Both the position numbers and the translations under genes were made by a program. 64,000 bases of DNA from Candidatus Zixiibacteriota bacterium (GTDB lineage: Bacteria > Zixibacteria > MSB-5A5 > GN15 > JACZUZ01), in contig JAJRPM010000004.1 in the NCBI GenBank assembly GCA_024280775.1, positions 186,001 through 250,000 on the forward strand. The letters are read 5' to 3'. Each line of letters begins with the position of its first letter. The first letter of the stretch is position 1. Below the pieces are notes generated by a model that had not been told where the DNA came from, searched no databases, and saw only the letters and a list, made by a program, of their open reading frames with translations. This document shows, piece after piece, positions 43,913-60,574 of the stretch.

Positions 43913-44401
43913 TTACATAGTAAAGATTCTATCGCCCGAGAGTATCTGTTTGAGCATTTGCAAAGTCTTCTCAGACGGAGAATGCATCAAATCAGCGGTA
44001 TTGAAAGTCATACGCTGCTTCTCTCTCGGACATTCAAAACTTGCCTTGCCGCGACCGCCGCGCACTTTCTTCTTGTGCGTCAAATTATACTGACGCTGAT
44101 ACTCTTTGGCTTTTTCTTTGTGCTTCTGATAATACTGACGTTGATACTCACGCCTGATAGCGCTCACCAGTTTCTTGCGCTCTTCCTCAGATAACCCAGT
44201 CATATCCACTTCAGATAGCGTAGTAGGGGCTGTGATTTTTTTGCCGTCTTCTACGGCTAGTAGTTCACGACCCTTGACGGCAGGCTTCGTCATCTCTTCG
44301 GCTTTACTGCGTAGCGCCTCGGCTGGTAGTCGTGATTTGACATCGATTACTGCCTGGCGCTTGCGATCCTTGTCTAGCTCTTTCATAGCGTTCTTCTTCA
44401 T
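43913..44401 (-). CDS. Small basic hypothetical protein with YQRQY repeats
   Basis: A 162-residue protein with a GTGAGG ribosome binding site nine bases before the ATG. I do not recognise a family. It is very rich in K, R and E. Residues about 75-115 are a tandem helical motif, 'REYQRQYYQKHKEKAKEYQRQ' being two near-repeats of (R/K)EYQRQY. Similar Y-x-x-x-Y basic stretches occur in DNA- or RNA-binding linkers. A lone Cys is in FECPREKQR. There is no signal peptide or membrane segment, so it is likely cytosolic. It is isolated, with 568 and 773 bp of non-coding sequence on its sides. Confidence 0.55.
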   Translation of the reverse strand: MKKNAMKELDKDRKRQAVIDVKSRLPAEALRSKAEEMTKPAVKGRELLAVEDGKKITAPTTLSEVDMTGLSEEERKKLVSAIRREYQRQYYQKHKEKAKEYQRQYNLTHKKKVRGGRGKASFECPREKQRMTFNTADLMHSPSEKTLQMLKQILSGDRIFTM

Positions 44402-45174: not shown

Positions 45175-45783
45175 TCAATTAGCGCCGCCATTGTAGCACG
45201 GCAAAGTTCCGCCCTGGAAGATGTGTTCGATGAGCTTTGTGACATCACCTATGTTCATACTACCATCACAATTGAGGTCACCATTGGATGTCCCCGGCAA
45301 AGGAGCTGGTCCACCGTCAAATATATGGCTGATGAGATTTGTTAGATCCGCGATGTTGAGCGAGCCGTCGTGATTGACATCATGGTCGCCGAGGACGCGC
45401 ATGATGATCCCACCAGGCATGGCAAATGTGCCAAAAGGTGTTTGTAGCAAAGCTGTGTAGTCACCCAGGATGATATCATCAGGGATGTTGCAGGTAAAGC
45501 TATGAACAATATGGCCCGGCTCAACAAACTCCACAGTTCCAGAGCATATTTCAATTGTGTCTGTACCGTTGGTTAACAACAGAGAGAGGTCTATCGGATC
45601 AAACATCATGCCCCCGGGAAACTGGATATCGAGGCTGATGTCGATAGTGTCACCAATACTGAACTCCGAAGGGAAATTAGTAAACCCGCCACCCATAGGA
45701 AACTGCGCTTTGGCTGAACCGGCAAGTAGGACAGAAGATAGAACTGCCGTTGCTAATAGTTGGCGTAGATTACGAAACTTCAT
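45175..45783 (-). CDS. Small secreted dockerin protein
   Basis: About 202 residues from the ATG at 45783, which has GGGAGGA seven bases upstream; the frame runs on to 45897 without a better start. The signal peptide ends near AGSAKAQ. Residues about 30-130 form a beta-sandwich-like module ('EFSIGDTIDISLDIQFPGG', 'GDYTALLQTPFGTFAMPGG'). The C-terminus has two dockerin-like repeats ('HDVNHDGSLNIADLTNLIS', 'DLNCDGSMNIGDVTKLIEHI'). These are more diverged from the other dockerins in the window. It lies directly downstream of the three membrane modules but has its own start region. Confidence 0.8.
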   Translation of the reverse strand: MKFRNLRQLLATAVLSSVLLAGSAKAQFPMGGGFTNFPSEFSIGDTIDISLDIQFPGGMMFDPIDLSLLLTNGTDTIEICSGTVEFVEPGHIVHSFTCNIPDDIILGDYTALLQTPFGTFAMPGGIIMRVLGDHDVNHDGSLNIADLTNLISHIFDGGPAPLPGTSNGDLNCDGSMNIGDVTKLIEHIFQGGTLPCYNGGAN

Positions 45784-45979
45784 GTGAGGGTCCTCCCGAG
45801 ATGGCGTCGCCGACTTATTGGCAACAGATAAGTTTTTTTGTGTAAGTAGACCTAGTGCAGTCGAAAGCAAGTTACTTTCAAATAAGTAAGCTGTCAAGAT
45901 ATTCTCTATGGCGTCACAAGAGCCTGGGAGAACTGACGCAGAACAAAACTTGATAAACTAAGAACTGTAAGTAGTGAAA

Positions 45980-46762
45980 TTAGGTTAAATCGGTGTCGGT
46001 CTTGCCCTTGGTGCGAATCAGGTCAAAGGCCAGCAAGCCAAATATCCCAACAAGAATCAGGATATAGACAGCCGTATAGGACCCGCTACCCTCCTGATGC
46101 GCCGAGCCTACTGAAGTGATACGCCATTGATCCAGGAACTGAACACGGTTAATTAGCAACGATATACGCGCCATGACCGTGAATCCAAACGAGGCGCCAA
46201 AACCAAGCATCAAAGTCCATATTCCAACTGTGGCGACACCACCGAACCAACCTTTGTGCTCTTTGGAGAAGTAGAAATAAATTAGAGCCGCAAGAGAGCC
46301 AATAATTATTATTAAGGACGCAAATGAGTTGGTGTAGTTCAGTAGACCGCCGTCAAAGAGGTTCCCCCAATGCAATTCAACCATCATAGCCTGTAATTGC
46401 TCAGTGACTTTGGTTTGCATTTCAAGAGGTATCGCCAGCCCGGTTGCAATTCCGATATAAATAGCAATCGGATACCTGGAAACCCAGGCCAGCTTCTTTG
46501 AAAAACGAGTCCACATGAGCACACCTAGAATCAATGGAATAAGATACACCATCTGCCCATCGTAGAGCTTTTCAACCAACTGTGTCTTAAGCGAGCCGTA
46601 ATACAGGATAATCACAAAATATCCGGCGGAAACACCTACCACAAGATGCTCGGCGATTTTGTAAAGCGGGTTGTCTTTATATAAGAATGAGAATGTCGCC
46701 AAAGTCAAAAATGCGGCGAAGGTCATCCACAGGTAGTCACCTAATTCCATAACTGGATTCAT
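45980..46762 (-). CDS. Module 1 protein D: polytopic membrane protein
   Basis: A 260-residue protein with about seven hydrophobic segments. The family core is 'FSFLYKDNPLYKIAEHLVVG' near residue 25 and 'FSKEHKGWFGGVATVGIWTL' near residue 165, followed by LGFGASFGFTVMARISLLI. These stretches are shared with the D proteins of modules 2 and 3. This copy has an extra C-terminal segment (after residue 220) with one more transmembrane helix. It overlaps gene C by one base and is the last gene of the module. I know of no characterised homologue; function is unknown. It is probably a scaffold or channel-like subunit of a membrane complex with A, B and C. Confidence 0.75.
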   Translation of the reverse strand: MNPVMELGDYLWMTFAAFLTLATFSFLYKDNPLYKIAEHLVVGVSAGYFVIILYYGSLKTQLVEKLYDGQMVYLIPLILGVLMWTRFSKKLAWVSRYPIAIYIGIATGLAIPLEMQTKVTEQLQAMMVELHWGNLFDGGLLNYTNSFASLIIIIGSLAALIYFYFSKEHKGWFGGVATVGIWTLMLGFGASFGFTVMARISLLINRVQFLDQWRITSVGSAHQEGSGSYTAVYILILVGIFGLLAFDLIRTKGKTDTDLT

Positions 46763-47646
46763 TAGAGCCCCCTCTTCTTGTGAGAGCCGAAGTAACCAAT
46801 ATTCGCAATGATAATAAATGCGATTATTGTGAGATGCGCCCAGACTTGCACTTTCATGCCGTCCATTGCCAAACCGGGGTTATCAGCCAAACGCTCATAC
46901 TCGGCGGCGCCCAGCAGACCACCCATCAAACCGAACACTCTACCAGAGCCAAGATAAGGATAGTAATCAGCGGTCATAACACCCGTAAGACCGAGCGCCA
47001 GCTTAACATCATAGCGCGCCGCGGCATATTTAATCCAGGCGTCAACTACGTTTGAACCGGATATATCAATAACCATCTCAATATCATCGTAGTTCTGCAC
47101 ATCTTTCATAATCGGGAGCGAATCCAGAAGAACATCATAATAGTCTCTTGAAAAGAAAGTGCGGAAATTCTGCCCCATGCCGGTAATCACTAACTCAAAA
47201 TAGGCCCGGTAGCCAAGAAAAGCATAATCCACACCATTGACGATTTCACGACCAGGATAGCTGACGCCATTGTATGTCTTTGGCAATGCCGTTGAATCCA
47301 CAATATCCAAAATAGCCTGCTCAGCCATACCCGGACCATTTTGCGAAAGCGAGGTGATAATCACGCCAACTTTCTTGCGGAAGCACTGCTCCATGATGAC
47401 ATAGGTCATAGGATGTAATTCAGCCAGAGCATTGGGATCGTAGTCAATCGCCAGCAGAATCTTCTGACCTTCTTCAAGTCCTTCGATTGCATCAAAAATA
47501 GTCTGCACCTCGCGCGAGGCCGGCACTGGAACATTCATCGGAATGTAGTAGGTAGAGACAACCACAACCGCGAGAACCAAGAACACCCAGCGGCGGTCAA
47601 GGAGCATCACGCGATCAAAGAAACCTTTATTCGAATTGTTACTCAT
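46762..47646 (-). CDS. Module 1 protein C: anchored protein with DYDP motif
   Basis: A 294-residue protein: one N-terminal helix (about 18-35), a large extramembrane alpha/beta-looking domain (about 45-260) and a C-terminal helix (about 265-285). The motif 'KILLAIDYDPNALAELHPM' is shared with modules 2 and 3, as is 'GLMGGLLGAAEYERL' near residue 240. This copy differs at two points that the other copies conserve: the GNE after the YG.DY.N.G segment is replaced by YFE, and the SG.PG..EW stretch reads SGSNVVDAW. Gene order and spacing (directly after B, one-base overlap with D) match the other modules. Function is unknown. Confidence 0.75.
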   Translation of the reverse strand: MSNNSNKGFFDRVMLLDRRWVFLVLAVVVVSTYYIPMNVPVPASREVQTIFDAIEGLEEGQKILLAIDYDPNALAELHPMTYVIMEQCFRKKVGVIITSLSQNGPGMAEQAILDIVDSTALPKTYNGVSYPGREIVNGVDYAFLGYRAYFELVITGMGQNFRTFFSRDYYDVLLDSLPIMKDVQNYDDIEMVIDISGSNVVDAWIKYAAARYDVKLALGLTGVMTADYYPYLGSGRVFGLMGGLLGAAEYERLADNPGLAMDGMKVQVWAHLTIIAFIIIANIGYFGSHKKRGL

Positions 47647-48279
47647 TTAGTCTCTACCCATATAAGCGCGTTCAATTCCCAAAATAACCTTCAAACCGGT
47701 TGCAACTATGCCCAATCCAACTCCCATCCAAATAGCGCGTTTCGCCGCCAAATTCGGAACATTGAGAATCCAGTCAGCAACCGGACGAGTATACTCTGCA
47801 ACAAACGGGAAGAAGCGAATCATCACAATAATAGCTCCGATAAGCAGAATCGAGGCTAGAGCCGAACGCGCGCGGAATGCGCGATAGGCCGCTGAGGCAA
47901 TGAAAAATGCCAGCAGAGAAAACATAGTTGAGTAAATCGGAATAAGAATGTCATTAAAGAAGTGACGGAACATATAGGATTCCTGCCCCTGAAACATGGA
48001 GTTCTCGCCACCAAACTTGAGTCCGAAGATTATCATCCCGAAAAGCCCGAAGAGGGTAATGAAACTGTATTGCCAGTCACGCTTCTTGTGCTTGATTCTA
48101 TCCAGGTTGACAGTAATCAAAGACCAAATACCCAGCGCCAAAGCGAAAATTCCGATAATCGAAGTCCAGTCCAGCATGTTCTCGTTGACTTTTTGCGCAC
48201 CTTCAAGCGGGATGAAGTACAATGCCAACATCAACCAACCAAAGATAAATACAAGCGCTAATGGAATTTGTCTTTTCAT
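47647..48279 (-). CDS. Module 1 protein B: small polytopic membrane protein
   Basis: A 210-residue protein with about six hydrophobic segments, beginning MKRQIP as its paralogues begin MKR.IP. The best conserved stretch is 'STMFSLLAFFIASAAYRAFR' near residue 120, followed by the C-terminal VILGIERAYMGRD. Where modules 2 and 3 have AGQRAI, this copy has AAKRAI. It begins 22 bases after gene A and abuts gene C. The conserved Tyr-Arg-Ala-Phe-Arg stretch at a helix end may face the cytosol. No family of known function is recognised. Confidence 0.75.
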   Translation of the reverse strand: MKRQIPLALVFIFGWLMLALYFIPLEGAQKVNENMLDWTSIIGIFALALGIWSLITVNLDRIKHKKRDWQYSFITLFGLFGMIIFGLKFGGENSMFQGQESYMFRHFFNDILIPIYSTMFSLLAFFIASAAYRAFRARSALASILLIGAIIVMIRFFPFVAEYTRPVADWILNVPNLAAKRAIWMGVGLGIVATGLKVILGIERAYMGRD

Positions 48280-48301
48280 ATTACTCTTAAGCTCTTCTCA
48301 A

Positions 48302-49597
48302 TCAACCAACAGCCTCGAAAGCCTTTGCGAATCCTTCATAGCCCAACCCAGACATAATAACCCCGAGAATCGCCAGGACAACGATCACCGCTTTGGCATA
48401 GTCCTGCGCCTTCAATGCGCCAAGTAACAGTGGCTCACGCCCCAAATAGGCCGATGCCGCATACAGTTCTTCACCAATCAAAGTATAATCACAGGCCACC
48501 ACAAAAAACGGCAACTGAGCGATTTCGTCAGTTCCGGCTATCTGAATTGAACCGGCTATAGCGCCTGTTTCAGCCAGGATTAGTGACTCGGCGTAGAATT
48601 TGCCCAGGTAGATATTAGTTGCCGGACGGTCACGAAGAATAGTGCCGTTTACCGCGGCAACATAAGCGAATTGCGCTTGAGTGACGAAGTAAACTTGATC
48701 GTCGCGATAGGCGTCGGGACGGCCAGCGTCCATGTAACCGGTGCGCACAGTTTCCTGCGCAATAGTGAACACAATCGGATCATAGCATGGCACAATCACG
48801 TCCGTCTGATATTCAGCAACCTTGCGCGCGACTCTGCCGAGAATAGTAAACGAAGCGATTGTCGCAATGTCCGATGCAGTTCCCAGCCCCAGCACATACA
48901 AGATTGGCTTGCCCATTTCAGTAGCGCGACCAATTGCCTCATCGACAGCGTCAATTCCGGCCAGTGGGCGAATATAGAGCGAATCACCACGTTGTTTTGC
49001 GACACGCAGGAAGTACAAAGTCAGCAGGGTAAAAAAGAGCACGAAGAAAAAAACCGGATTGCGACCACTATTCCACCATTGCCCCACCGCTTGAGCCGGG
49101 GCGGAAACTTCTGAGTCCGAGTAAAGAGTCGAATCAGCGGTCACTGCTCGGACACGGTAGAATAAATCTGTTTCAGTAGGGAGATAATCATCGCTGGACT
49201 TATCAGATCCTCCAGCGTCTTTGTAGATCAGAGATGCAGTCACATCCACATCTGAGGGCACAGCTCCAACTTTTTTCCAAGGGCCACTCCGGGCCAATGA
49301 GCGATATATTTCATAGCCAAGGACCAAGGCCTGACCATCAGCAGGAGCTTGTGACTGCGAAAAAGTCACTATTACCGCATGTCCGGCGTCATTGGGAGCG
49401 TCTTCGACTGTCACATTGCCCGGCGCAGCTGGAGCCAACATTGGAGCCAACATTGTTGAAGCATTGTCTACTTCCGCTGTCGCCTCCTGCGACAAGACAG
49501 CAGACGATGAAAACACAATCCCGAACATCATACCGTATACAGCCAAGCGGAAACCTGGCCAAAATGCGTTTCTGGAAGTTCGGGATTGGAGAGTCAT
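48302..49597 (-). CDS. Module 1 protein A: signal peptide, FN3, TM and conserved cytoplasmic domain (DUF6754-like)
   Basis: A 431-residue protein. The signal peptide ends near VLSQEA. An FN3-like domain spans about 55-165 ('YEIYRSLARSGPWKKVG', 'ETDLFYRVRAVTADS'). A transmembrane helix is at about 175-195. The conserved domain (about 205-395) includes 'GIDAVDEAIGRATEMGKPIL', 'FYAESLILAETGAIAG' and 'QLPFFVVACDYTLIGEEL'. A C-terminal helix is at about 400-425. I associate this domain with DUF6754, from memory. In the other two copies the stretch after GKPI is F.PGI.DM.DVQTIAG; here it is YVLGLGTASDIATIAS. A weak promoter-like pair (TTGACG, 16 bp, TAGTGT) lies at 49657-49630 upstream. Confidence 0.75.
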   Translation of the reverse strand: MTLQSRTSRNAFWPGFRLAVYGMMFGIVFSSSAVLSQEATAEVDNASTMLAPMLAPAAPGNVTVEDAPNDAGHAVIVTFSQSQAPADGQALVLGYEIYRSLARSGPWKKVGAVPSDVDVTASLIYKDAGGSDKSSDDYLPTETDLFYRVRAVTADSTLYSDSEVSAPAQAVGQWWNSGRNPVFFFVLFFTLLTLYFLRVAKQRGDSLYIRPLAGIDAVDEAIGRATEMGKPILYVLGLGTASDIATIASFTILGRVARKVAEYQTDVIVPCYDPIVFTIAQETVRTGYMDAGRPDAYRDDQVYFVTQAQFAYVAAVNGTILRDRPATNIYLGKFYAESLILAETGAIAGSIQIAGTDEIAQLPFFVVACDYTLIGEELYAASAYLGREPLLLGALKAQDYAKAVIVVLAILGVIMSGLGYEGFAKAFEAVG

Positions 49598-49769
49598 AGT
49601 TTTGTCTATTTATATCGTCTTAGAGTAAAACACTAACGATTTCTGATGGGCCGTCAAATCCATTGGCTTCATCGGCGCCACATCTGCGGCTGTTAATAGC
49701 CGCGCCCAATATCAACAACAAGATAAAAAAATGCAAGTCCGAATCTATCGGGTTAATTCAGCGTTAACT
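49598..49769 (-). promoter_or_regulatory. Gap between modules 2 and 1, weak promoter candidate
   Basis: This 172-bp gap is the only sizeable one inside the three-module locus. It contains a small hairpin (GCGGCT..AGCCGC near 49687-49706) and a weak -35/-10 pair at 49657-49630 on the minus strand. Module 1 may therefore have its own transcription start. Confidence 0.3.
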
Positions 49770-50585
49770 TCAACTAATAATTCCGGCCCAGTCTCTGAAA
49801 AGAAAAGTTAGACGACCCACTAGTAGCGAGACTCTGCCCATAACCGTATAGCCAAAAGACGCTCCAAAAGTGACCATCAACACCCATATTCCCAGGCGCG
49901 ATACTCTCCCGAACCATCCGGTATGCTCCTTCGAGAAGAAGAAATAAACTAATCCACTTATGACACCCACCACAATAACCCAATTTGAAAGCATTTTGAT
50001 AAACTGGCCGCCGTAACTAAGATCGAAGTTTGAAACAAAATCTCCGAATCCGGTCCAATCTGGCAAAAGCGGCAGACTCATGGTGCTGGATATTTGAGAA
50101 ATGAAATTGGCTTTCAGGTTAGCAGTCATCAGTAGTCCGGCAGTAGAGGCGACAATAAACGCCAATGTCCATTTTGAGAGCCAGCCAATTTTCAGGCTAT
50201 CCGGCAACAGTCGAGTCAACAAAAGCAAACCAAAAGCTATGGGAATCCAATAGTCCCATTTGTATCCCAAAAATGGTTGGTCAAGAGCCTCGCTCAACCA
50301 GGGTGACAAATGCGGAATAGCCTGCTGAACAATATTGGACCAAAATCCTACGCACATCCAGTACGCCGCCGAAACTCCCACATACAGATGTTCGGCAAAC
50401 TTGTAGAATGGATTGTCTCGATACAGGAAAGAGAAAATCATCAACGTGAGAAATCCACCTGCAGTAACGATAAACGCATCCCAAAGAGCCTGGGAGCTGT
50501 CGACCGCTTCAAAATCGAACTTCAAAAGCAAAAAACCGATAAACACAATTATCGAAGCAATGGGTATCATCACCTTGCGGTTCAT
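49770..50585 (-). CDS. Module 2 protein D: polytopic membrane protein
   Basis: A 271-residue protein with about seven hydrophobic segments. It has an N-terminal helix (residues 5-22) absent from the other D copies. The core motifs are 'FSFLYRDNPFYKFAEHLYVG' near residue 52 and 'FFFSKEHTGWFGRVSRLGIW' near residue 222, then LMVTFGASFGYTVMGRVSLL. It overlaps the end of gene C by four bases (ATGA-type), so the two are translationally coupled. Function unknown; the strict pairing with A, B and C suggests a common membrane complex. Confidence 0.75.
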   Translation of the reverse strand: MNRKVMIPIASIIVFIGFLLLKFDFEAVDSSQALWDAFIVTAGGFLTLMIFSFLYRDNPFYKFAEHLYVGVSAAYWMCVGFWSNIVQQAIPHLSPWLSEALDQPFLGYKWDYWIPIAFGLLLLTRLLPDSLKIGWLSKWTLAFIVASTAGLLMTANLKANFISQISSTMSLPLLPDWTGFGDFVSNFDLSYGGQFIKMLSNWVIVVGVISGLVYFFFSKEHTGWFGRVSRLGIWVLMVTFGASFGYTVMGRVSLLVGRLTFLFRDWAGIIS

Positions 50586-51574
50586 GCCGAAGCTCCCTTA
50601 CGTTTCTTTGCCAGGAAGAACGAGATATTCGCAAATATGATAAGCAACATTAAGAACACATGTGCGACAGTTTGCGGGCCCATTATCTCGGTGGCCTGCG
50701 CTCTAAATTCGCCGTATTTGGGGTAACCCCTGCGAAGCATTTTTTCGTATTCAGATGCGCCCTTCGACCCACCCATCATTCCATTCATTTGTTGTGGATA
50801 ATAAGGATACAACTGCGGAGCGGAAACTGCGGCGGCGCCGCTTCCCATCAACGCTCCCGAGGGTTCTACCACATACTCAACCCACTCTTTTATCCCCGGA
50901 CGACCACTGCCAATGGCAACGATATAACTGAAATCCGGGCAAGCGGTGACACCTGTCATCATCGGGAGACTATCAAGCACTATACCGGAAACGTCAGTCG
51001 GAAATGTCTTACGAAAATCAGTCGCTATGACCTTCAACACCGCTTCATTGCCAGCTCGGTATCCAACATTGCAATAGTCTTCTCCATACACCAACTCCGG
51101 GAAATCAGGTCGGATGGCCGTTATGACATCAGCTATCATCGCCCCACCTGTTCCCCATAGTGTCATATAACAAATCTTCAATTTCTTTTCCAGGCAATGT
51201 TGTGACACCGCTATGGCCATAGGTTGCAATTCGGGAGCGCCGGAAGGATCATAGTCTAGTGACAGAAGCACTTTGTCGCCTTCTTCCAGATTCTCAATTG
51301 TATCGAAGATATTACGCACTACCACTGTCTCCTGGACCGGCAACACAATCCCCGTTAGAACTGCGCCCGCGACAGTCAGACCCATCATCAGGAAGATGAC
51401 ACGTCTTTCAACTTCGCGCCCCTTAATGGTGCGCCAAAACACCCAACCGACACCCGCAACGAAAAGAATCCAGAATATCCAGCTAAAGACCGGCCCCAGA
51501 CCGTGCGAGACAACCGAAAACAATGGCGAAAACAATGGCGAAAACACTGGCGATAGAAATAGCGCTTGTATCAT
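50582..51574 (-). CDS. Module 2 protein C: anchored protein with DYDP motif
   Basis: A 330-residue protein, the longest of the three C copies. It has two to three N-terminal hydrophobic segments (to about residue 80), an extramembrane domain (about 85-300) and a C-terminal helix (about 303-322). Conserved motifs are 'KVLLSLDYDPSGAPELQPM', 'EDYCNVGYRAGNEAVLKVIA', 'VAIGSGRPGIKEWVEYV' and 'MNGMMGGSKGASEYEKML'. The pattern suggests an alpha/beta domain with an Asp-rich strand end; I do not recognise it. It overlaps gene B and gene D by four bases on each side. Confidence 0.75.
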   Translation of the reverse strand: MIQALFLSPVFSPLFSPLFSVVSHGLGPVFSWIFWILFVAGVGWVFWRTIKGREVERRVIFLMMGLTVAGAVLTGIVLPVQETVVVRNIFDTIENLEEGDKVLLSLDYDPSGAPELQPMAIAVSQHCLEKKLKICYMTLWGTGGAMIADVITAIRPDFPELVYGEDYCNVGYRAGNEAVLKVIATDFRKTFPTDVSGIVLDSLPMMTGVTACPDFSYIVAIGSGRPGIKEWVEYVVEPSGALMGSGAAAVSAPQLYPYYPQQMNGMMGGSKGASEYEKMLRRGYPKYGEFRAQATEIMGPQTVAHVFLMLLIIFANISFFLAKKRKGASA

Positions 51575-52260
51575 TCATCACCTCCGCTGAGGTGAGTGCG
51601 TTCGATTCCCAAAATCACACGCAGTGACATCGAGACAATTCCTAAAGCAATGCCAATAAGGATTGCGCGTTGCCCAGCTAGATTGGCTTTGGCCAGCAAC
51701 CAGAGCGAGAGATTCTCAACTTTGAAGAACGACACCCAGTCGGGCATCCATCCGGTGGCAACAACACCGACAAAAGTTTGTCCCATCAGAATAATAAACG
51801 CAGAAACCAACAGGACTGTCGCATCGGAGTTCTTGGCTCGAAATGCGCGATATGACGCCGAAGCGATAAAGAACGCCAGCAGAGAATACATGCTCGCCGA
51901 AAGCGGCGCCTTGACCGCATCGAATAGATTTTTGAACCATGAACCATTTGCGTTCAGGTCAGCGGCATACCCCGCAGTCGCCATCTCCGGGTTGCCGAGT
52001 TTGAATAGTCCCAACGCCAGCATCACAAAGAAACCAACTACTGTGACAAGCGCATACTCCCAATCCGTTCTCTTGCTGAATACTTTTTGCAAATTGATTT
52101 TCAACAATGACCCGCCGCCAAGAAAGAATGCGAAGACAGAAATAATCTGGAAATAGATTAACACGTCTTCACGCATCTTGCCCCAAGGCGGGACAAACTC
52201 GGCAATGACCAGAACAAATCCGGTGACAATTGTAATTATCCATGGTATTGTGCGCTTCAT
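51571..52260 (-). CDS. Module 2 protein B: small polytopic membrane protein
   Basis: A 229-residue protein with about six hydrophobic segments, starting MKRTIP. Shared motifs are 'SMYSLLAFFIASASYRAFRA' near residue 120 and 'AGQRAILIGIALGIVSMSLR' followed by VILGIERTHLSGG at the C-terminus. It starts 14 bases after the end of gene A and overlaps gene C by four bases. No family of known function is recognised. Confidence 0.75.
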   Translation of the reverse strand: MKRTIPWIITIVTGFVLVIAEFVPPWGKMREDVLIYFQIISVFAFFLGGGSLLKINLQKVFSKRTDWEYALVTVVGFFVMLALGLFKLGNPEMATAGYAADLNANGSWFKNLFDAVKAPLSASMYSLLAFFIASASYRAFRAKNSDATVLLVSAFIILMGQTFVGVVATGWMPDWVSFFKVENLSLWLLAKANLAGQRAILIGIALGIVSMSLRVILGIERTHLSGGDE

Positions 52261-52274
52261 TGACTATCGATCGT

Positions 52275-53549
52275 CTACTGACCGCCTCCAAATACTGACC
52301 AAATTCCATGAAAGGCGCCTCTGAAAGTCTCGATATTCATGCCTTCTTCAGAGCCAAGCGTCGCTAACACCGCTCCAATCAATACCGCCGCCATCGCAAT
52401 AACCTTACCAACATCCTGCCCCTTAAGTGAGCCAAGTTGCTTGGCTTCTCCACTTAGATAAGCCGAGGCTGCAAAAAGCTCCTCGCCAATAAGCGTATAG
52501 TCACATGCGGCGACAAAAAACGGCAACTGCGCCGGTTGAGCTGTTCCTGCGATTTGTATAGCGCCGATTGAATTGCCTGTTTCAGCCAGTATTAGTGATT
52601 CGGCGAAAAATGCTCCGAGATAGAAACAGGTTGCAGGTTTATCGCGCGTCATGATACCGTTTACCGCGGCGACATACCCGAATTGTTCATCTGTGACGTA
52701 GTAAATATCATCAGCTCGGTAAGCGTCCACTCTACCGGCTGTCATATAGGCCTCGCGAACTGTTTCACGGGCCGCTGTCATCGCCAGTGATGCGCGTGTC
52801 GGAACAAAGATTCGTGATTCGTATTCGGCTACCTGCTTGGCGACTTTCGCCAGTATGGTCATACCGGCGATTGTCTGGACATCATCCATATCATGAATAC
52901 CCGGAATAAACAAAATCGGACGGCCCATTTCGGTTGCGCGACCAATGGCTTCTTCTACCGCCTGAAGACCGGCAATCTTGCGCAAGAACATCTGCTTCCC
53001 TTTTCGCGCGTGATAAATAAAATACATCACCGAGCCGCCGATTAGAACCAGCAAGATAAACACCCACACTTCATCCCAATCAAACCACTCCCGCTCGGTT
53101 GTAACTTCGGCCGAAACAATAGGCTCAGAGACCTGGCCGGAAAGTGTATATGAGCTTACTGAGTACTGATAGGTTTCACCGCGGGTCAAACCTATATCTG
53201 CAAAAGATGAGGTAAGCGAAAAAACCGCTCCTATAGAGTCGAATTCGGCAGAACCTGCGACGCTGCGGTAAATGATATAACCGGCCACGTTGCGCATACC
53301 GGCAGTATCATCGAAAGACAAATCCCAACTCACATCAACGGCCTCACCGATGTCATACTTGTGATCCACAGCTAGGACATTCGTTGGCGCCGCCGGAGCG
53401 CCCTCAAGCTCTGCAGATGTTGAATCGGTAACTGATATATCGGAATCTTGCGCAAGTAATGGCGCGGAATAAGCGGCAAAAACAAGTAGTGATAATAGTG
53501 ATGTAAGGAAAGTTTTTCTTGAGATGGATAAGCGGCTTAATCGACTCAT
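52275..53549 (-). CDS. Module 2 protein A: signal peptide, FN3, TM and conserved cytoplasmic domain (DUF6754-like)
   Basis: About 424 residues from the ATG at 53549 (GAGAG upstream); the open frame extends to 53600 but would overlap module 3 gene D. The signal peptide ends near APLLAQ. An FN3-like domain (about 45-145) is followed by a helix (about 155-175) and the conserved domain (about 180-375): 'GLQAVEEAIGRATEMGRPIL', 'PGIHDMDDVQTIAGMTIL', 'FFAESLILAETGNSIGAIQ', 'QLPFFVAACDYTLIGEELF'. A C-terminal helix follows 'LGSLKGQDVGK'. It lies 20 bp downstream of module 3 gene D, so modules 3 and 2 probably share one transcript. Confidence 0.77.
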   Translation of the reverse strand: MSRLSRLSISRKTFLTSLLSLLVFAAYSAPLLAQDSDISVTDSTSAELEGAPAAPTNVLAVDHKYDIGEAVDVSWDLSFDDTAGMRNVAGYIIYRSVAGSAEFDSIGAVFSLTSSFADIGLTRGETYQYSVSSYTLSGQVSEPIVSAEVTTEREWFDWDEVWVFILLVLIGGSVMYFIYHARKGKQMFLRKIAGLQAVEEAIGRATEMGRPILFIPGIHDMDDVQTIAGMTILAKVAKQVAEYESRIFVPTRASLAMTAARETVREAYMTAGRVDAYRADDIYYVTDEQFGYVAAVNGIMTRDKPATCFYLGAFFAESLILAETGNSIGAIQIAGTAQPAQLPFFVAACDYTLIGEELFAASAYLSGEAKQLGSLKGQDVGKVIAMAAVLIGAVLATLGSEEGMNIETFRGAFHGIWSVFGGGQ

Positions 53550-53569
53550 ATATCTCTCTGGTAACACTC

Positions 53570-54223
53570 TTAGAACATTTGTCCGAAATTTGTAGCCCAA
53601 CTACTAAAGAGGAAATCCAAGCGACCAATCAGAAGTGACATACGACTCATGACCGTGTAACCGAACGAGGCTCCGAAAGTGACCATCAAAAACCAAATAC
53701 CGACTTTCGCCGCGCCACCAAAGATTCCTTTGTGCTCTTTCGAGAAAAAGAAGTAAATCAATCCGGTCACCGTGCCAATAGCTACCGTAAACGAACCAAG
53801 CGTGGCCAGGAAAGTGTCCTGTATCAGTGGTTGCATTGTCGAAGCAATCTGATTCATCGCATTCGAAACAAAGAAAGTCATCATATACAGACCGGCGGTA
53901 GCGCCAACAATGAACGCCAGCGGCCAGCGAGAGAGCCAGTTTATCTTGGGAATCATGCGACACAGCATCAAAACACCAAGTATCGCTCCGCCCCAAAGCC
54001 ACATATCCGGATCTGCTCCGCTACCTTCAGGAGGTATAACCCCCAGCCAAAACTTCTTGTATAGGGCGCTATAGAAATATTCAACCGCCCAATAAGCCGC
54101 TGAGACTCCGATAAAAATCGCCTCACAGACCTTGTAAACCGGGTTATCCTTGTAAAGGAAGGAGAAAATACCCAGAGTCAAGACACCGGCAATGAATATT
54201 CCTATGGGACTTGCGTCAGCCAT
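53570..54223 (-). CDS. Module 3 protein D: polytopic membrane protein
   Basis: A 217-residue protein, the shortest D copy, with about six hydrophobic segments and no extra terminal helix; it may show the minimal form of the family. Core motifs are 'FSFLYKDNPVYKVCEAIFIG' near residue 20 and 'FFFSKEHKGIFGGAAKVGIW' near residue 157, followed by LMVTFGASFGYTVMSRMSLL. It starts three bases after gene C ends. Function unknown. Confidence 0.75.
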   Translation of the reverse strand: MADASPIGIFIAGVLTLGIFSFLYKDNPVYKVCEAIFIGVSAAYWAVEYFYSALYKKFWLGVIPPEGSGADPDMWLWGGAILGVLMLCRMIPKINWLSRWPLAFIVGATAGLYMMTFFVSNAMNQIASTMQPLIQDTFLATLGSFTVAIGTVTGLIYFFFSKEHKGIFGGAAKVGIWFLMVTFGASFGYTVMSRMSLLIGRLDFLFSSWATNFGQMF

Positions 54224-54226
54224 GCT

Positions 54227-55129
54227 CTAACCGTTTTTCCTTTTCCGGGTGCGGAAATATGCTGTATTACCAATGATGATAAAGAGAATCACTATAGCGT
54301 GTGTCGAGATTTGAGAAAGTAACATCGTCGAACCAGCTCCGGGCATTCCCAGCGCCTTTTCAAATTCCGCCGCGCCACTCATCCCACCAAGCAAACCGAC
54401 CATCTGATTCGCTCTCAAGTACGGATAAATCTGCGGAGCCTGCACAGCAGTGTTGCCAGCGCCTAATGTTGCGCCAAACCTATCCACCGCAAACTGCACC
54501 CACTCTACTGTCCCGGGCTTACCTGCGCTGAAGTTCATCACAAAATCGATGTTGCTGAAATTCACAATATTTTGCAAAACCGGAATTGAGTCATAGGGTG
54601 TCTGACGTTGATCACGAGAGAACATCGCCTTGAACCCCGAACCCATTCGCTGAATCACAAACTCATTGCCCGACTGAAACCCAAGATTCACATAATCTAT
54701 GCCGTACTGCGGATTCATCGCCTGTACATCAGGGTCCAAAAGCGCCGCGGCAATCGCTTGATCAGCCTGCTGTGGTCCCTGCGGCCAAAGTCCCATTACG
54801 ATTACATCCAAGTCATTCTTGAACGCCATCTTAAAAAATGCTTCGGCCATCGGTTGTAACTCAGGAGCTGACGGTGGATCGTAATCAAACGCCGCCAGGA
54901 TTTTCGAGTTAGGCGGCAACTCTTCCAGCGCATCCACCAAAGCCTGCACATCAGGGGTTACATGCACCGGCGGAAGCAAATCCATAAACAGCGGCAACCC
55001 TGCGGCAAACGCCACATAGACAAAAACCACCCGACGGCTAACCGGATTGCCGATAATCGTGCGATACAACACATAGATCAAACTAAGTCCCAACAGGGCC
55101 ATACCGATAATAGCGAGTGTGTTACCCAT
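54227..55129 (-). CDS. Module 3 protein C: anchored protein with DYDP motif
   Basis: A 300-residue protein with two N-terminal hydrophobic segments (about 5-25 and 33-52), an extramembrane domain (about 55-270) and a C-terminal helix (about 275-292). Conserved motifs are 'KILAAFDYDPPSAPELQPM', 'GIDYVNLGFQSGNEFVIQRM', 'NFSAGKPGTVEWVQFAVDRF' and 'MVGLLGGMSGAAEFEKAL'. Its ATG shares one base with the TGA of gene B (TGATG), a sign of coupled translation. The fold and function are not known to me. Confidence 0.75.
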   Translation of the reverse strand: MGNTLAIIGMALLGLSLIYVLYRTIIGNPVSRRVVFVYVAFAAGLPLFMDLLPPVHVTPDVQALVDALEELPPNSKILAAFDYDPPSAPELQPMAEAFFKMAFKNDLDVIVMGLWPQGPQQADQAIAAALLDPDVQAMNPQYGIDYVNLGFQSGNEFVIQRMGSGFKAMFSRDQRQTPYDSIPVLQNIVNFSNIDFVMNFSAGKPGTVEWVQFAVDRFGATLGAGNTAVQAPQIYPYLRANQMVGLLGGMSGAAEFEKALGMPGAGSTMLLSQISTHAIVILFIIIGNTAYFRTRKRKNG

Positions 55130-55806
55130 CAGGCGTCACCTCCCACATGCGAGCGCTCAATGCCCAAAATAATGCGCAACGAGCTGGAAGTGATTCCAAG
55201 AGCGATGCCAATCATAATCGCACGCTGACCCGCTGAATTAGGATAGGTCATAATCCAATCCGCAACTGCGCTGAAAAATGGAAAGTCTGTTATTCCTAAT
55301 GCGTTGACAATCGGATCTAGTAGTGGAACACGGCCAACCATTACAAAGAACGCTGTCACAAGTAGCAATGTCGCCTCCAGGCTCCTGGCTCGGAAAGCGC
55401 GATATGACGCCGAAGCGACAAAGAACGCTAACATCGAGAACATAGTGGCGCTCAACGGCGAGAAGGTATAGTCATACATCCACTTCAAACCAGTTCCTGG
55501 GGCCATGTGTGATGTGCCACTGGAGATGGCGTTAAAGACCGAAGAAAAGCCGATTATCAACATGACCAACATCGAAACCAAAACAATTACTCCCAATTGC
55601 CATCCCTCGGTCTTGCGGATAATTTTGCGCAAAGACACTTCTCCCAAGTTGAGCATACCCAACCAAATGGCGAAGGCTGAAACTATACTAATCCAATCAC
55701 CAAAGATGTTCTCTGCTTTACCGAAGGGGTAATGCGGAATAAAATAGCTCACCGCAAAAACAATTCCGGCGATAGAGGTGATTATTAGAGGTATTTCTCT
55801 CTTCAT
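55129..55806 (-). CDS. Module 3 protein B: small polytopic membrane protein
   Basis: A 225-residue protein with about six hydrophobic segments, starting MKREIP. Shared motifs are 'TMFSMLAFFVASASYRAFRA' near residue 120 and 'AGQRAIMIGIALGITSSSLR' then IILGIERSHVGGD at the C-terminus. It starts 30 bases after gene A ends. Function unknown. Confidence 0.75.
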   Translation of the reverse strand: MKREIPLIITSIAGIVFAVSYFIPHYPFGKAENIFGDWISIVSAFAIWLGMLNLGEVSLRKIIRKTEGWQLGVIVLVSMLVMLIIGFSSVFNAISSGTSHMAPGTGLKWMYDYTFSPLSATMFSMLAFFVASASYRAFRARSLEATLLLVTAFFVMVGRVPLLDPIVNALGITDFPFFSAVADWIMTYPNSAGQRAIMIGIALGITSSSLRIILGIERSHVGGDA

Positions 55807-55836
55807 AATAGATCAGATACTCGTTTACTGCTCTTC

Positions 55837-57267
55837 TCAGTCTACCTTGAAATACTGTTGCAAATACAACCAGCTCGGCAAGTCTACCACTTCACCCAGC
55901 AACACAACTATCAGCCCCAGTACCATCGCCACTAGGAACAACGCCTTACCTACATCCTGCCCCTTCAATGAGCCAAGCTGACGCGGCTCACGAGACAGAT
56001 AGGCCGAGGCGGCAAAAAGCTCCTCGCCCAAAAGCGTATAATCGCAGGCCGCCACAAAGAATGGCAACTGCGACGGCATAGCGGTTCCGGCGATTTGGAT
56101 AGCGCCGACTTCATTGCCGGTTTCAGCTAGAATCAATGACTCTGCGAAAAAAGCCCCCATGAAAAATATGGTTGCCGGCTTCTCACGCACAAACATTCCA
56201 TCAAGCGCCGCGGCATAACCGAATTGATCCTCAGTGACAAAATGCACCTGAGCTTCCTGAAACATATCAGGACGACCCGCGCGCGAATAAGCGTCTTTCA
56301 TTGTCTCCTGCGCAGTGACCATCACCATAGATTTACTAACCGGAACTTCCAGCCAGGTCTCATACTCGGCGGCAACTTGCGCAACCCGTCCCAAAATCGC
56401 CATACCCGCGATTGTCTGAACGTCATTCATATCCTGAATACCCGGGATGAAGAAAATCTTTTTGCCCATCTCAGTCGCGCGACCAATTGCTTCCTCGACC
56501 GCTTCAATCCCGGCAATCTTGCGCAGAAAAATCTCGCTACCAGAGTAGAAATCTTTGAGAAACAAAACCATCGTGATTGCCGCGATAATCGCCATTACCC
56601 AGGAGTAGAAAAAGCCCAGCAGGATTATGAACAATATATTGGCCATCCAGAGATTGCTCTTTCCGGTCTTGGCCTGAGTGATAAACTGTAATATCGAAAA
56701 TGCAACTATCAGGAAGATAAAGAGCATTACCCCCAGCTTCTTGTTGAACCATTGAGCTTTGGTGGTTGTCGGCCCCCAAACTACCGAGGGAGAAGCCACA
56801 AATGTTTGATTACCGTCGGCGTCGATTTCGAAGCGATAGGCGTCGACGCGATAGAAATACTCCACTCCGTCTATGGCGCCATTGTCCAGACTTTCGGTCT
56901 TGCCAATAGTCGCTTTGCCAACGGTGTCCACAAATGGACCCGAGGGTGATTCCGAGCGAAGGACTACATAGCCGTCAATGATCCCGCGACTTGTATCATC
57001 CGGCGAAAGCTCCCAGGTGATAGTAGCGGATTTGCCTTTGTCATTAGGAGTATCCTCGGCATGAACATTCACAGCCGGAGCCGGCGGTGGCGCAATTGCC
57101 GCGCTGTCGACAGGTTGCTCGTCTTGCGCAAGAGCGCCGACCGGAGACATCAAACCGCATAACAGAGTCAAAGCCAACGCTATAGAAGAGCTTCGAGTAT
57201 GAGCGTTCTTATATCGCTGGCGCCGTTGCATGCGGTCGTCGGAATTTGCGGTTCTGGTCAGTGTCAT
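55837..57267 (-). CDS. Module 3 protein A: signal peptide, FN3, three TM segments and conserved cytoplasmic domain (DUF6754-like)
   Basis: A 476-residue protein, first gene of the three-module locus. A basic N-terminus and signal peptide end near GALAQD. An FN3-like domain spans about 65-170 ('IDGYVVLRSESPSGPFVD', 'GVEYFYRVDAYRFEIDADG'). Where the other A copies have one helix, this one has three (about 178-240). The conserved domain (about 250-440) includes 'GIEAVEEAIGRATEMGKKIF', 'PGIQDMNDVQTIAGMAIL', 'FFAESLILAETGNEVGAIQ' and 'QLPFFVAACDYTLLGEELF'. A C-terminal helix ends the protein. The odd number of helices keeps the same predicted topology: FN3 outside, conserved domain inside. It is preceded by a strong promoter at 57360-57332. 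Confidence 0.77.
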   Translation of the reverse strand: MTLTRTANSDDRMQRRQRYKNAHTRSSSIALALTLLCGLMSPVGALAQDEQPVDSAAIAPPPAPAVNVHAEDTPNDKGKSATITWELSPDDTSRGIIDGYVVLRSESPSGPFVDTVGKATIGKTESLDNGAIDGVEYFYRVDAYRFEIDADGNQTFVASPSVVWGPTTTKAQWFNKKLGVMLFIFLIVAFSILQFITQAKTGKSNLWMANILFIILLGFFYSWVMAIIAAITMVLFLKDFYSGSEIFLRKIAGIEAVEEAIGRATEMGKKIFFIPGIQDMNDVQTIAGMAILGRVAQVAAEYETWLEVPVSKSMVMVTAQETMKDAYSRAGRPDMFQEAQVHFVTEDQFGYAAALDGMFVREKPATIFFMGAFFAESLILAETGNEVGAIQIAGTAMPSQLPFFVAACDYTLLGEELFAASAYLSREPRQLGSLKGQDVGKALFLVAMVLGLIVVLLGEVVDLPSWLYLQQYFKVD

Positions 57268-57574: not shown

Positions 57575-60574
57575 ATGAAGCTGTTTACTATAACTATAGC
57601 GCTCGTCCTACTAGCCACCACAACATCCAATTCCACCACAATAAACGTCCCCACCGACCAACCAACAATCCAAGCCGGGATAGACGCGGCGGTTGATGGG
57701 GATACGGTGCTAGTGGCGCCGGGGACATATGGAGCGATAGACGTGATTTCGAAAACAATAGATGTGGTAGGGACGAAAGGATTCCGGTACACATCAATCA
57801 CTACTTGTACATTAGCCAATAGTACCGTTAGGCTGGATGGCCTTCTTTGCAACTCAATATCGATCGTACAATGCATAGCCGACGTTTCAAACTGCTACAT
57901 ACTCAATGGCGGACTAGAAGTTACCGGCGCCAACTGCCAAGCAAGAATCGCCAATTGCGGATTCTTGGTCCAGACAGTGACCGCAGGCATTCAACAAAAC
58001 GGCGGAACATGTACCTATATTAACAACACTATAGCATTCGGCGACAAAGGAATAGTTATCGATTCTGGGGTTGCAGTCCTAGTTAACAACCTAATATTCG
58101 GAAACAACTCTAGCGGTATTACCGTAAATGGCGGTAGCATATCCAGCGAGTATAACAACATATACGGAAATGGTATTGATTTGGTCGGTGCAACACCATC
58201 TTCATCTGACATATCTGTCGATCCTATGCTTGTTGGTACGGTGGTATATTCTTGGAAGGAATACTTGCTCGGAGATTCTTCCCCTTGCATTAATGGCGGA
58301 TCACCTTTGCCAGTTTACGATGATCCCGATGGTACAATTAGTGACATTGGGCAAGTGTATAGAGACCAGAGAAATGTCTTCGTAGTGCCAGACGATTTTG
58401 GGACTTTGGATAGCGCGATTCAAGCATGCTATGGGCAAGACTCAATAATTGTCAAAGCTGGAACCTATTACGAATCGATAAACCCGAAAGCAACGGATCT
58501 CAGGATAGTTGGGGAATCGGGAAACGATTTCCCTGTAATACGACCTGCTGTAGGCGAATCCACGATTTTCTTGATCTCGGAAGATGTGGGGTGGTACGGA
58601 CTGCCCAACCGACCTTATTCTTTGGAATTTTGCAGGATAGAATTCTCCGGAGCAATAGTATCTCCTGCGATCAGATACCAACGACTCACTTTCCAGTTCG
58701 AAGCCGTCACGATCGATCAATGTGTGTTCAGCTCTAACCAGGGTGGTGCAATTGAAATACTTCCTGACGATGGTCTCTCGACTCATACAATCAGGAATTC
58801 TACGTTTGAATTAAATGGAGGTGTCGTAGTAAGTTATAGGAATAATAACGGATTGAACCAGTCTGGCAACGTATTCCGTAACAACAACGCGACCACATTA
58901 CTGTCAGTATCTACACCATTCTCTGGAGTTTCCGGTGTTCGATTCGACTCAAACACAGTGAGTGGCTATCTGCTGTCTGTAACCGACTACGCAAAAGGAG
59001 CGACCCAATTCCTCTCTAACAATGTTTTCGTGGGAAATACCTCGTCAAATACTTCACTTATCAATATGTGGGCGAGGAAAACCGCTAACGTATACAACAA
59101 CCTATTCTATGACAATACCTTCGTCGACTCTGGATGCGTTCTCTGCAACGTAAGAAGCGGTTTCAATCGAGGGAATATTCATAATAACATTATGGCAGAT
59201 AACAAGAGGTCAATAGGTATGTCACTAGACTCTATCATGTTTGGCCCGGAGTGGAATAGTTCTGGTAATACTTCATGGAACAATGAAATTGCAAACTTTT
59301 CGGATTCGTTGAATGCGTCAGGTAATCTCATGTCAGACCCACTTTTCTGCTCAGTTCTGGACAACAACTTCGCACTCTTTGACGTTTCACCTTCCTCCGG
59401 ACAAGGCCCATTTGGAATCGGTTGCTCAGGCTTTGTCTCCGTCGACTCTATCGGTAGCGTCAATAGCGAAACCCTCATGAACATAGTCGCGCAAGCTCCC
59501 AGCTTTGATTGGTTCGTCACTGACTCATCTGGAAAAACAGACTCCCTCTTCGAAATCGCCGTAGGCACAGACACCAACTGGACCTTCGCTGAAATGTGGA
59601 ACCCGGCTCCGTTTGCTTCGTCTGATACATTTGTCACTTATGCCGGAGCGCCGCTACTTGATGGCGCTACTTACTTTTTGCGTTTGCGGGTGCATAATTC
59701 GCTGGTATGGTCGGATTGGTTTGAGACATCCTTTCGGATGAACTCTCTGCCAAGTATTCCCGCGCTGGCCTTCCCTGCTGACAGCGCGGTTGTCACATCA
59801 TTGGCGCCAACTCTGTATGCCCAAAACTCAAGTGACGCCGAGGCTGACACCATCACCTACATCTTCGAGCTATACGAGGATTACAATTTGAACACACTTA
59901 TCGAATCTGATTCGACGGTGGCCGAGCAACTTGACTCAACCGGTTGGGCGCCATCTTTCCCGCTGACTGAAAACAGTGTGGGTTACTGGCGCGTTAAAGC
60001 CTTCGACGGGTTCGAGTATTCTGATTGGTCGGCGACACGACTGTTCTGGGTCAACGCCGCTAACTCAGCGCCGACTGCGTTCACTCTTGATGCGCCATCA
60101 AATTCCGCACGGCTTTTCGATATGCTCCCAACCTTCCGCTGGCAAAGCTCCGGCGATAATGACCCGGGCGATTCAGCGCTGTACAAACTCAGCGTGGCTA
60201 TCGACTCGGGATTTGGATTTGTCGCGGTAGTTGACAGTATCGCAGATACATTCTTCACCTGGACAGACTCGCTGGATTTCGGCGATGAATATTGGTGGAA
60301 AGTCGAAGCCTTCGACGCGAACGGCGCGGTTACATCCTCGCAAGTGTTCTCCTTCCCCACCTGGGTCCTCGGCGATGCAAACGGCGACGGCAACGCAAAC
60401 ATCGCCGATGTGACTTTCCTGATAAACCGAATTTTCTCCGGCGGTCCCGGCCCCAATCCCAACAAAACCGGTGATGTCAACGGCGACTGCTCGGTGAATA
60501 TCGCCGATGTAACATACATGATAGCCCGAATTTTCTCCGGCGGCCCCGCCCCACTAATCGGTTGCGCGCCATAA
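57575..60574 (+). CDS. Secreted right-handed beta-helix protein with FN3-like region and dockerin
   Basis: A 999-residue protein with a GGAG site eight bases before the ATG. The signal peptide ends near TTTSNS. 'NVPTDQPTIQAGIDAAVDGD' starts a pectate-lyase-like parallel beta-helix (about 25-620) that recurs in a second round ('VPDDFGTLDSAIQACYGQDS'), with Asn-rich turns such as YNNIYGNG. Residues about 630-930 are two to three FN3/Ig-like modules ('TYFLRLRVHNSLVWSDWFE', 'GYWRVKAFDGFEYSDWSA'). The C-terminal 65 residues hold two dockerin-like repeats ('DANGDGNANIADVTFLINRI', 'DVNGDCSVNIADVTYMIARI'). A polysaccharide-related role is possible, but no catalytic residues can be assigned. Confidence 0.85.
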   Translation: MKLFTITIALVLLATTTSNSTTINVPTDQPTIQAGIDAAVDGDTVLVAPGTYGAIDVISKTIDVVGTKGFRYTSITTCTLANSTVRLDGLLCNSISIVQCIADVSNCYILNGGLEVTGANCQARIANCGFLVQTVTAGIQQNGGTCTYINNTIAFGDKGIVIDSGVAVLVNNLIFGNNSSGITVNGGSISSEYNNIYGNGIDLVGATPSSSDISVDPMLVGTVVYSWKEYLLGDSSPCINGGSPLPVYDDPDGTISDIGQVYRDQRNVFVVPDDFGTLDSAIQACYGQDSIIVKAGTYYESINPKATDLRIVGESGNDFPVIRPAVGESTIFLISEDVGWYGLPNRPYSLEFCRIEFSGAIVSPAIRYQRLTFQFEAVTIDQCVFSSNQGGAIEILPDDGLSTHTIRNSTFELNGGVVVSYRNNNGLNQSGNVFRNNNATTLLSVSTPFSGVSGVRFDSNTVSGYLLSVTDYAKGATQFLSNNVFVGNTSSNTSLINMWARKTANVYNNLFYDNTFVDSGCVLCNVRSGFNRGNIHNNIMADNKRSIGMSLDSIMFGPEWNSSGNTSWNNEIANFSDSLNASGNLMSDPLFCSVLDNNFALFDVSPSSGQGPFGIGCSGFVSVDSIGSVNSETLMNIVAQAPSFDWFVTDSSGKTDSLFEIAVGTDTNWTFAEMWNPAPFASSDTFVTYAGAPLLDGATYFLRLRVHNSLVWSDWFETSFRMNSLPSIPALAFPADSAVVTSLAPTLYAQNSSDAEADTITYIFELYEDYNLNTLIESDSTVAEQLDSTGWAPSFPLTENSVGYWRVKAFDGFEYSDWSATRLFWVNAANSAPTAFTLDAPSNSARLFDMLPTFRWQSSGDNDPGDSALYKLSVAIDSGFGFVAVVDSIADTFFTWTDSLDFGDEYWWKVEAFDANGAVTSSQVFSFPTWVLGDANGDGNANIADVTFLINRIFSGGPGPNPNKTGDVNGDCSVNIADVTYMIARIFSGGPAPLIGCAP

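Follow-up and report, generated by a model that had tools for sequence, protein, structure and literature searches.

What do three consecutive copies of the same four membrane-protein genes do in a bacterium of the Zixibacteria? The question is raised by a 64,000-nucleotide stretch of contig JAJRPM010000004.1 (positions 186,001 to 250,000, assembly GCA_024280775.1), hereafter the window, in which positions 45980–57267 hold 12 consecutive minus-strand open reading frames (ORFs) that read A-B-C-D three times over. An original prediction, made from the letters of the window, had described them as three tandem, diverged copies of an undescribed four-gene membrane module kept in parallel versions. 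All 12 ORFs were recovered at their coordinates and on their strand, and pairwise protein identities between the copies range from 35 to 52% (A 45–46%, B 41–44%, C 35%, D 43–52%). As had been proposed, genes within a module overlap or lie at most about 30 bp apart; the gaps measured are only −4 to +30 bp, so that the A-B-C-D order is not a chance arrangement.

Conservation and co-duplication of the module

The A protein carries the domain DUF6754 (PF20539), which was found in all 132 genomes of the phylum, at one to six copies per genome and usually more than one; the 14 control genomes had none. A scan of the whole collection returned 568 relatives, and the family occurs in about a dozen phyla outside Zixibacteria, mostly uncultured. 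The 79 loci retained include Zixibacteria, Eisenbacteria, Latescibacterota, Fermentibacteria/Aegiribacteria, Stahlbacteria, WOR-3, Coatesbacteria, Poribacteria, Cloacimonadota, Gemmatimonadetes, Neomarinimicrobiota, Edwardsbacteria and a Methylomirabilis bin. A is followed by B, C and D in that order at 156 of the 182 A loci, 15 more are cut by a contig end, and among the other 11 are several loci with masked sequence or a broken frame as well as some truly solitary A genes. Median gaps between the genes are 10, 1 and 1 bp. The genes are therefore not usually found apart, and profile searches of A to D placed them in no known complex. Literature searches (DUF6754; GlmL with ASKHA; type IX secretion in Zixibacteria) returned nothing on the system. 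Solitary A genes without B, C and D were observed in Fermentibacteria and a Stahlbacteria bin (L148:12687-13850, L149:10870-12027 and L090:9674-10774).

A further complete A-B-C-D set, overlooked by the original prediction, lies on another contig of the same genome (G000:C16:~111.8-115.2 kb). It falls in a clade of its own (support 100) with loci of like surroundings, namely ptsI, a sugar isomerase gene, a nucleotidyltransferase gene, metK and ahcY. In the 20 regions compared from across the phylum, modules mostly stand in tandem, two to four at a time. The split in the A tree follows module position and not organism, and the B, C and D trees recover the same three ortholog groups as A with label changes at a minimum. 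This agreement of the four trees indicates that whole modules were duplicated before the radiation of the phylum and that their parts were never swapped. The window genes are three of at least four ancient paralogous module copies. Something found throughout one phylum, present in many more and preserved for so long as several copies that do not mix must have a basic function.

Domains and predicted topology of A to D

A is a full-length, high-scoring member of DUF6754 (376–378 bits against a cut-off of 27, profile positions 3–255 of 257), so the conserved inner domain noted in the original prediction stands and was already a named Pfam family; that family entry carries no function, and the partners of A, apart from M (see below), match no family. 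The FN3 domain proposed for the ectodomain of A was borne out by PDB profile matches and by Foldseek matches with target TM-scores up to ~0.85. Since some A members lack FN3, including that of the fourth module, this domain lies outside the core. The AlphaFold2 model of A2 comprises FN3, a transmembrane (TM) segment, the alpha/beta DUF6754 domain and a second TM segment, an arrangement that would place DUF6754 on the cytosolic side.

Searches of Pfam, NCBIfam, PADLOC, PHROGs and PDB sequences gave no significant match for B, C or D. B is predicted to have six TM segments with both termini inside. The AlphaFold2 model of C (pLDDT 96) shows a Rossmann-like domain between TM helices, and positive-inside counts suggest that this alpha/beta domain lies outside the membrane. 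For D, an in-frame C-D fusion (L041) conflicts with the positive-inside estimate of its topology. In one genus an FG-GAP (integrin-like) beta-propeller is inserted in an outer loop of B (L125:14716-16491, L054:1846-3621), and Cloacimonadota A proteins carry ~700 residues N-terminal to DUF6754 (L140:8024-10831, L141:2971-5745, L142:1-2483). Together with the variable FN3, these additions indicate that the ectodomains vary while the core is constant. Both A and C combine an alpha/beta domain with TM segments; homology between them was rejected on profile comparison with column-shuffle controls, as was homology between B and D. No matches pointed to a viral or plasmid origin, and neither PADLOC nor PHROGs gave a match of A to D to a defence system or a phage protein.

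Operon partners, envelope context and candidate roles

Elsewhere the module is headed by three more genes, also missed by the original prediction, the full operon being Z-M-K-A-B-C-D. Z is a small protein often found ahead of M-K. Neighbour clustering showed M and K adjoining modules in 10 of 22 loci of the phylum, and in many other phyla, including Eisenbacteria, Fermentibacteria and Gemmatimonadota, the two immediately precede A. M is MutL/GlmL-like (PF13941, E about 1e-127 to 1e-133; NCBIfam GlmL, E 1e-70). Its alignment spans the full length of the family profile, and the members checked retain the phosphate and adenosine motifs of ASKHA proteins (DCGSTTTK, DIGGATTD, GSGGxLSH); from these features it is a GlmL-related putative ASKHA ATPase. 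It differs from GlmL in being ~150 amino acids (aa) longer, in its pairing with K and ABCD, and in its NCBIfam scores. The latter reach 236–247 bits where the equivalog cut-offs are 475 and 600, so that M fails the GlmL equivalog NF040745 (475), and 173–184 bits where the subfamily cut-off is 204 (TIGR01319 being the other GlmL entry considered); M is therefore not classed as GlmL. Nor was a mutase seen among the recurrent operon neighbours, the partners of M being K and ABCD.

K belongs, like B, C and D, to no named family and has a weak biotin/lipoyl-like similarity. It was detected in 123 of the 132 genomes of the phylum (77 of the 78 good ones), nearly always in single copy, against one to six copies of ABCD. 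Of 16 Gemmatimonadota genomes, 12 carry both A and K, and one more has K alone, at a contig edge. Several Zixibacteria encode M-like and K-like fusions of 931–982 aa as separate proteins (L158, L159, L160, L161, L162), which supports a joint function of M and K, and the combination of single-copy M-K with multi-copy ABCD suggests that one soluble unit may serve several membrane units. In Zixibacteria a ~260–280 aa protein is encoded between M and K (G000:C9:2313-3149, L058); a homolog of it gave no family match.

Envelope-type genes recur around the modules: 16 loci have ExbB/TolQ, 16 encode a TonB-dependent-receptor-like protein and 7 encode PorV-family proteins. Further neighbours that recur in several phyla are a nucleotidyltransferase with metK, and glycine-cleavage or lipoate-ligase genes. 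SprA, the translocon of the type IX secretion system (T9SS), is present in 19 of 21 relatives, this genome included, and in 21 of 23 A-bearing genomes from many phyla, and a GldM profile, searched without a Bacteroidota positive control, matched in 0/21 and 0/27 genomes. That the T9SS may exist in other FCB phyla has been noted in a review (PMC11285876). The Zixibacteria SprA-type translocon is encoded at G000:C4:7043-8446 and in relatives, with no detectable GldM. Frequent SprA and absent GldM make a role in secretion or surface assembly the leading guess.

We tentatively favour, at somewhat below an even chance, a general inner-membrane envelope machine in which an M-K ATPase unit serves several ABCD complexes in the assembly or secretion of envelope and surface proteins. 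Cytosolic M, with K, would act on the cytosolic DUF6754 domain of A, and the polytopic B and D would form the membrane body of a physical complex. ATP-driven domain movement could then reach the alpha/beta domain that C would expose outside the membrane and the variable ectodomains, such as FN3 on A and in some cases the beta-propeller of B, which would contact partners in the envelope. The several ABCD complexes served by a single-copy M-K unit may each be specific to a client or may together build one larger assembly, and their most likely role would be envelope or surface protein assembly or secretion in diderm bacteria. The system fits no described kind; it is a new system and the predictions made for it are testable. 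Its role, once known, would close a gap in what is understood of the cell envelope in a large group of uncultured bacteria.

Several points weigh against such a machine. Envelope neighbours change from phylum to phylum, related loci are not independent, and shared ancestry confounds the co-occurrence of SprA and A. SprA is missing from two A-bearing genomes; the Gemmatimonadota genome G146 has SprA and lacks A, K and GldM; and the GldM counts carry the limit given above. On the structural side, a Foldseek search with A returned FN3 matches only and nothing informative on the DUF6754 fold, because FN3 dominates the search, and the C domain gave weak Rossmann-type matches and no confident relative against PDB and viral models. 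A motor role of M driven by ATP is extrapolated, since M scores below the GlmL cut-offs and GlmL serves a B12 enzyme. In the genome of the window, M and K lie on contig C9, apart from the window modules. To date, none of these proteins has been the subject of a study.

The B12 connection leads to a metabolic alternative. GlmL is an accessory protein of glutamate mutase, and M-K could by analogy be a chaperone- or reactivase-like pair that keeps up ABCD, the latter being a membrane-bound enzyme or cofactor-handling complex. The relationship of M to GlmL, the weak biotin/lipoyl-like similarity of K and the recurrence of glycine-cleavage, lipoate-ligase, metK and ahcY genes in the neighbourhood are consistent with it. 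We consider it unlikely, as the operon holds no catalytic B12 enzyme, M falls far under the GlmL equivalog cut-offs, and elaborate ectodomains are unexpected in a metabolic complex.

A transporter would also account for an operon that combines two polytopic proteins with a membrane-anchored Rossmann-like domain on the extracytoplasmic side, a cytosolic domain and an ATPase: B and D would be the permease, C a tethered binding domain, A the cytosolic coupling domain and M an unusual source of energy. This is improbable, for no transporter family was matched in Pfam, NCBIfam or PDB, and a universal, multi-copy unit of fixed order is unusual for a substrate-specific importer.

The SprA and GldM counts, with the PorV-family and ExbB/TolQ genes recurring by the modules, could be read more narrowly, ABCD with M-K replacing the GldL-GldM proton motor of the T9SS in phyla that have SprA and lack GldM. 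What the modules have in common with the T9SS (SprA, PorV, GldL-GldM) is that SprA usually occurs in the genomes that bear them and that PorV-family genes are repeatedly found close by, but A to D are unrelated by profile to T9SS families, no GldM was detected and no SprA gene was seen beside modules. Likewise TolQ-TolR and ExbB-ExbD genes neighbour modules in several phyla, but A to D match neither the MotA/TolQ/ExbB nor the ExbD/TolR families. The strict form of this motor replacement was rejected when its prediction failed in the discriminating genome G146, which has neither ABCD nor GldM, and the two A-bearing genomes without SprA, the uncontrolled GldM counts and the presence of four to six copies, unlike a motor, leave little probability for the idea at large. 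We are equally doubtful of its boldest wording, in which Z-M-K-ABCD would power and assemble SprA/PorV-type secretion from the inner membrane in a dozen mostly uncultured phyla without GldL-GldM; one ATPase unit would here run up to six paralogous versions of a system that is driven by ATP and not related to any known secretion motor. The system does offer a direct way to ask whether secretion of the SprA type relies on another inner-membrane engine outside Bacteroidota.

The role suggested by the original prediction, from FN3 outside and a conserved domain inside, was signal transduction or surface attachment; FN3 outside and DUF6754 inside are compatible with a receptor, but kinase, GGDEF, receiver and anchor domains are all absent, no sensor output domain was found, FN3 is dispensable, and polytopic partners with a GlmL-like ATPase ill suit a simple receptor, so that this role is very improbable.

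Gene layout and surroundings in the window

The features of the 12 genes are given in Table 1. The A2 ORF as listed starts at TTG 53600; a downstream ATG at ~53549 (MSRLSR...) is, from its sequence context, the likelier start. With this ATG the predicted 20-bp gap between two modules holds, and the gap between the other pair is 172 bp.

Table 1. Genes of the three A-B-C-D modules in the window.
Gene	Position	Strand	Product and predicted features	Support
A1	55837..57267	-	476 aa; signal/TM, FN3 outside, TM, DUF6754 predicted cytosolic, C-terminal TM	PF20539 E 2.7e-113; ortholog group o1
B1	55129..55806	-	225 aa; six predicted TM segments, N-in/C-in	no family match
C1	54227..55129	-	300 aa; two N-terminal TM helices, Rossmann-like alpha/beta domain predicted extracytoplasmic, C-terminal TM	AlphaFold2 mean pLDDT 96.4; no close fold
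D1	53570..54223	-	217 aa; polytopic FSFLYKDNP protein	no family match
A2	52275..53600	-	FN3, TM, DUF6754, TM; likelier start near 53549	AlphaFold2 pLDDT 86; own-genome and phylum searches; start context
B2	51571..52260	-	229 aa	ortholog group o2
C2	50582..51574	-	330 aa	ORF, module comparison, C tree
D2	49770..50585	-	271 aa	ORF, module comparison, D tree
A3	48302..49597	-	431 aa; FN3, TM, DUF6754, TM	PF20539 E 8.7e-113; ortholog group o3
B3	47647..48279	-	210 aa	ORF, module comparison, B tree
C3	46762..47646	-	294 aa	ORF, module comparison, C tree
D3	45980..46762	-	260 aa	ORF, module comparison, D tree

Dockerin-type proteins are encoded on both sides of the module array (window positions 57575-60574 and 45175-45897), one of them with a weak beta-helix match. 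Positions 43913-44401 encode a small basic protein of no family, HKEKAKEYQRQYNLTHKKK, which in several genomes is conserved at a place between the modules and the gene for a pyruvate phosphate dikinase.

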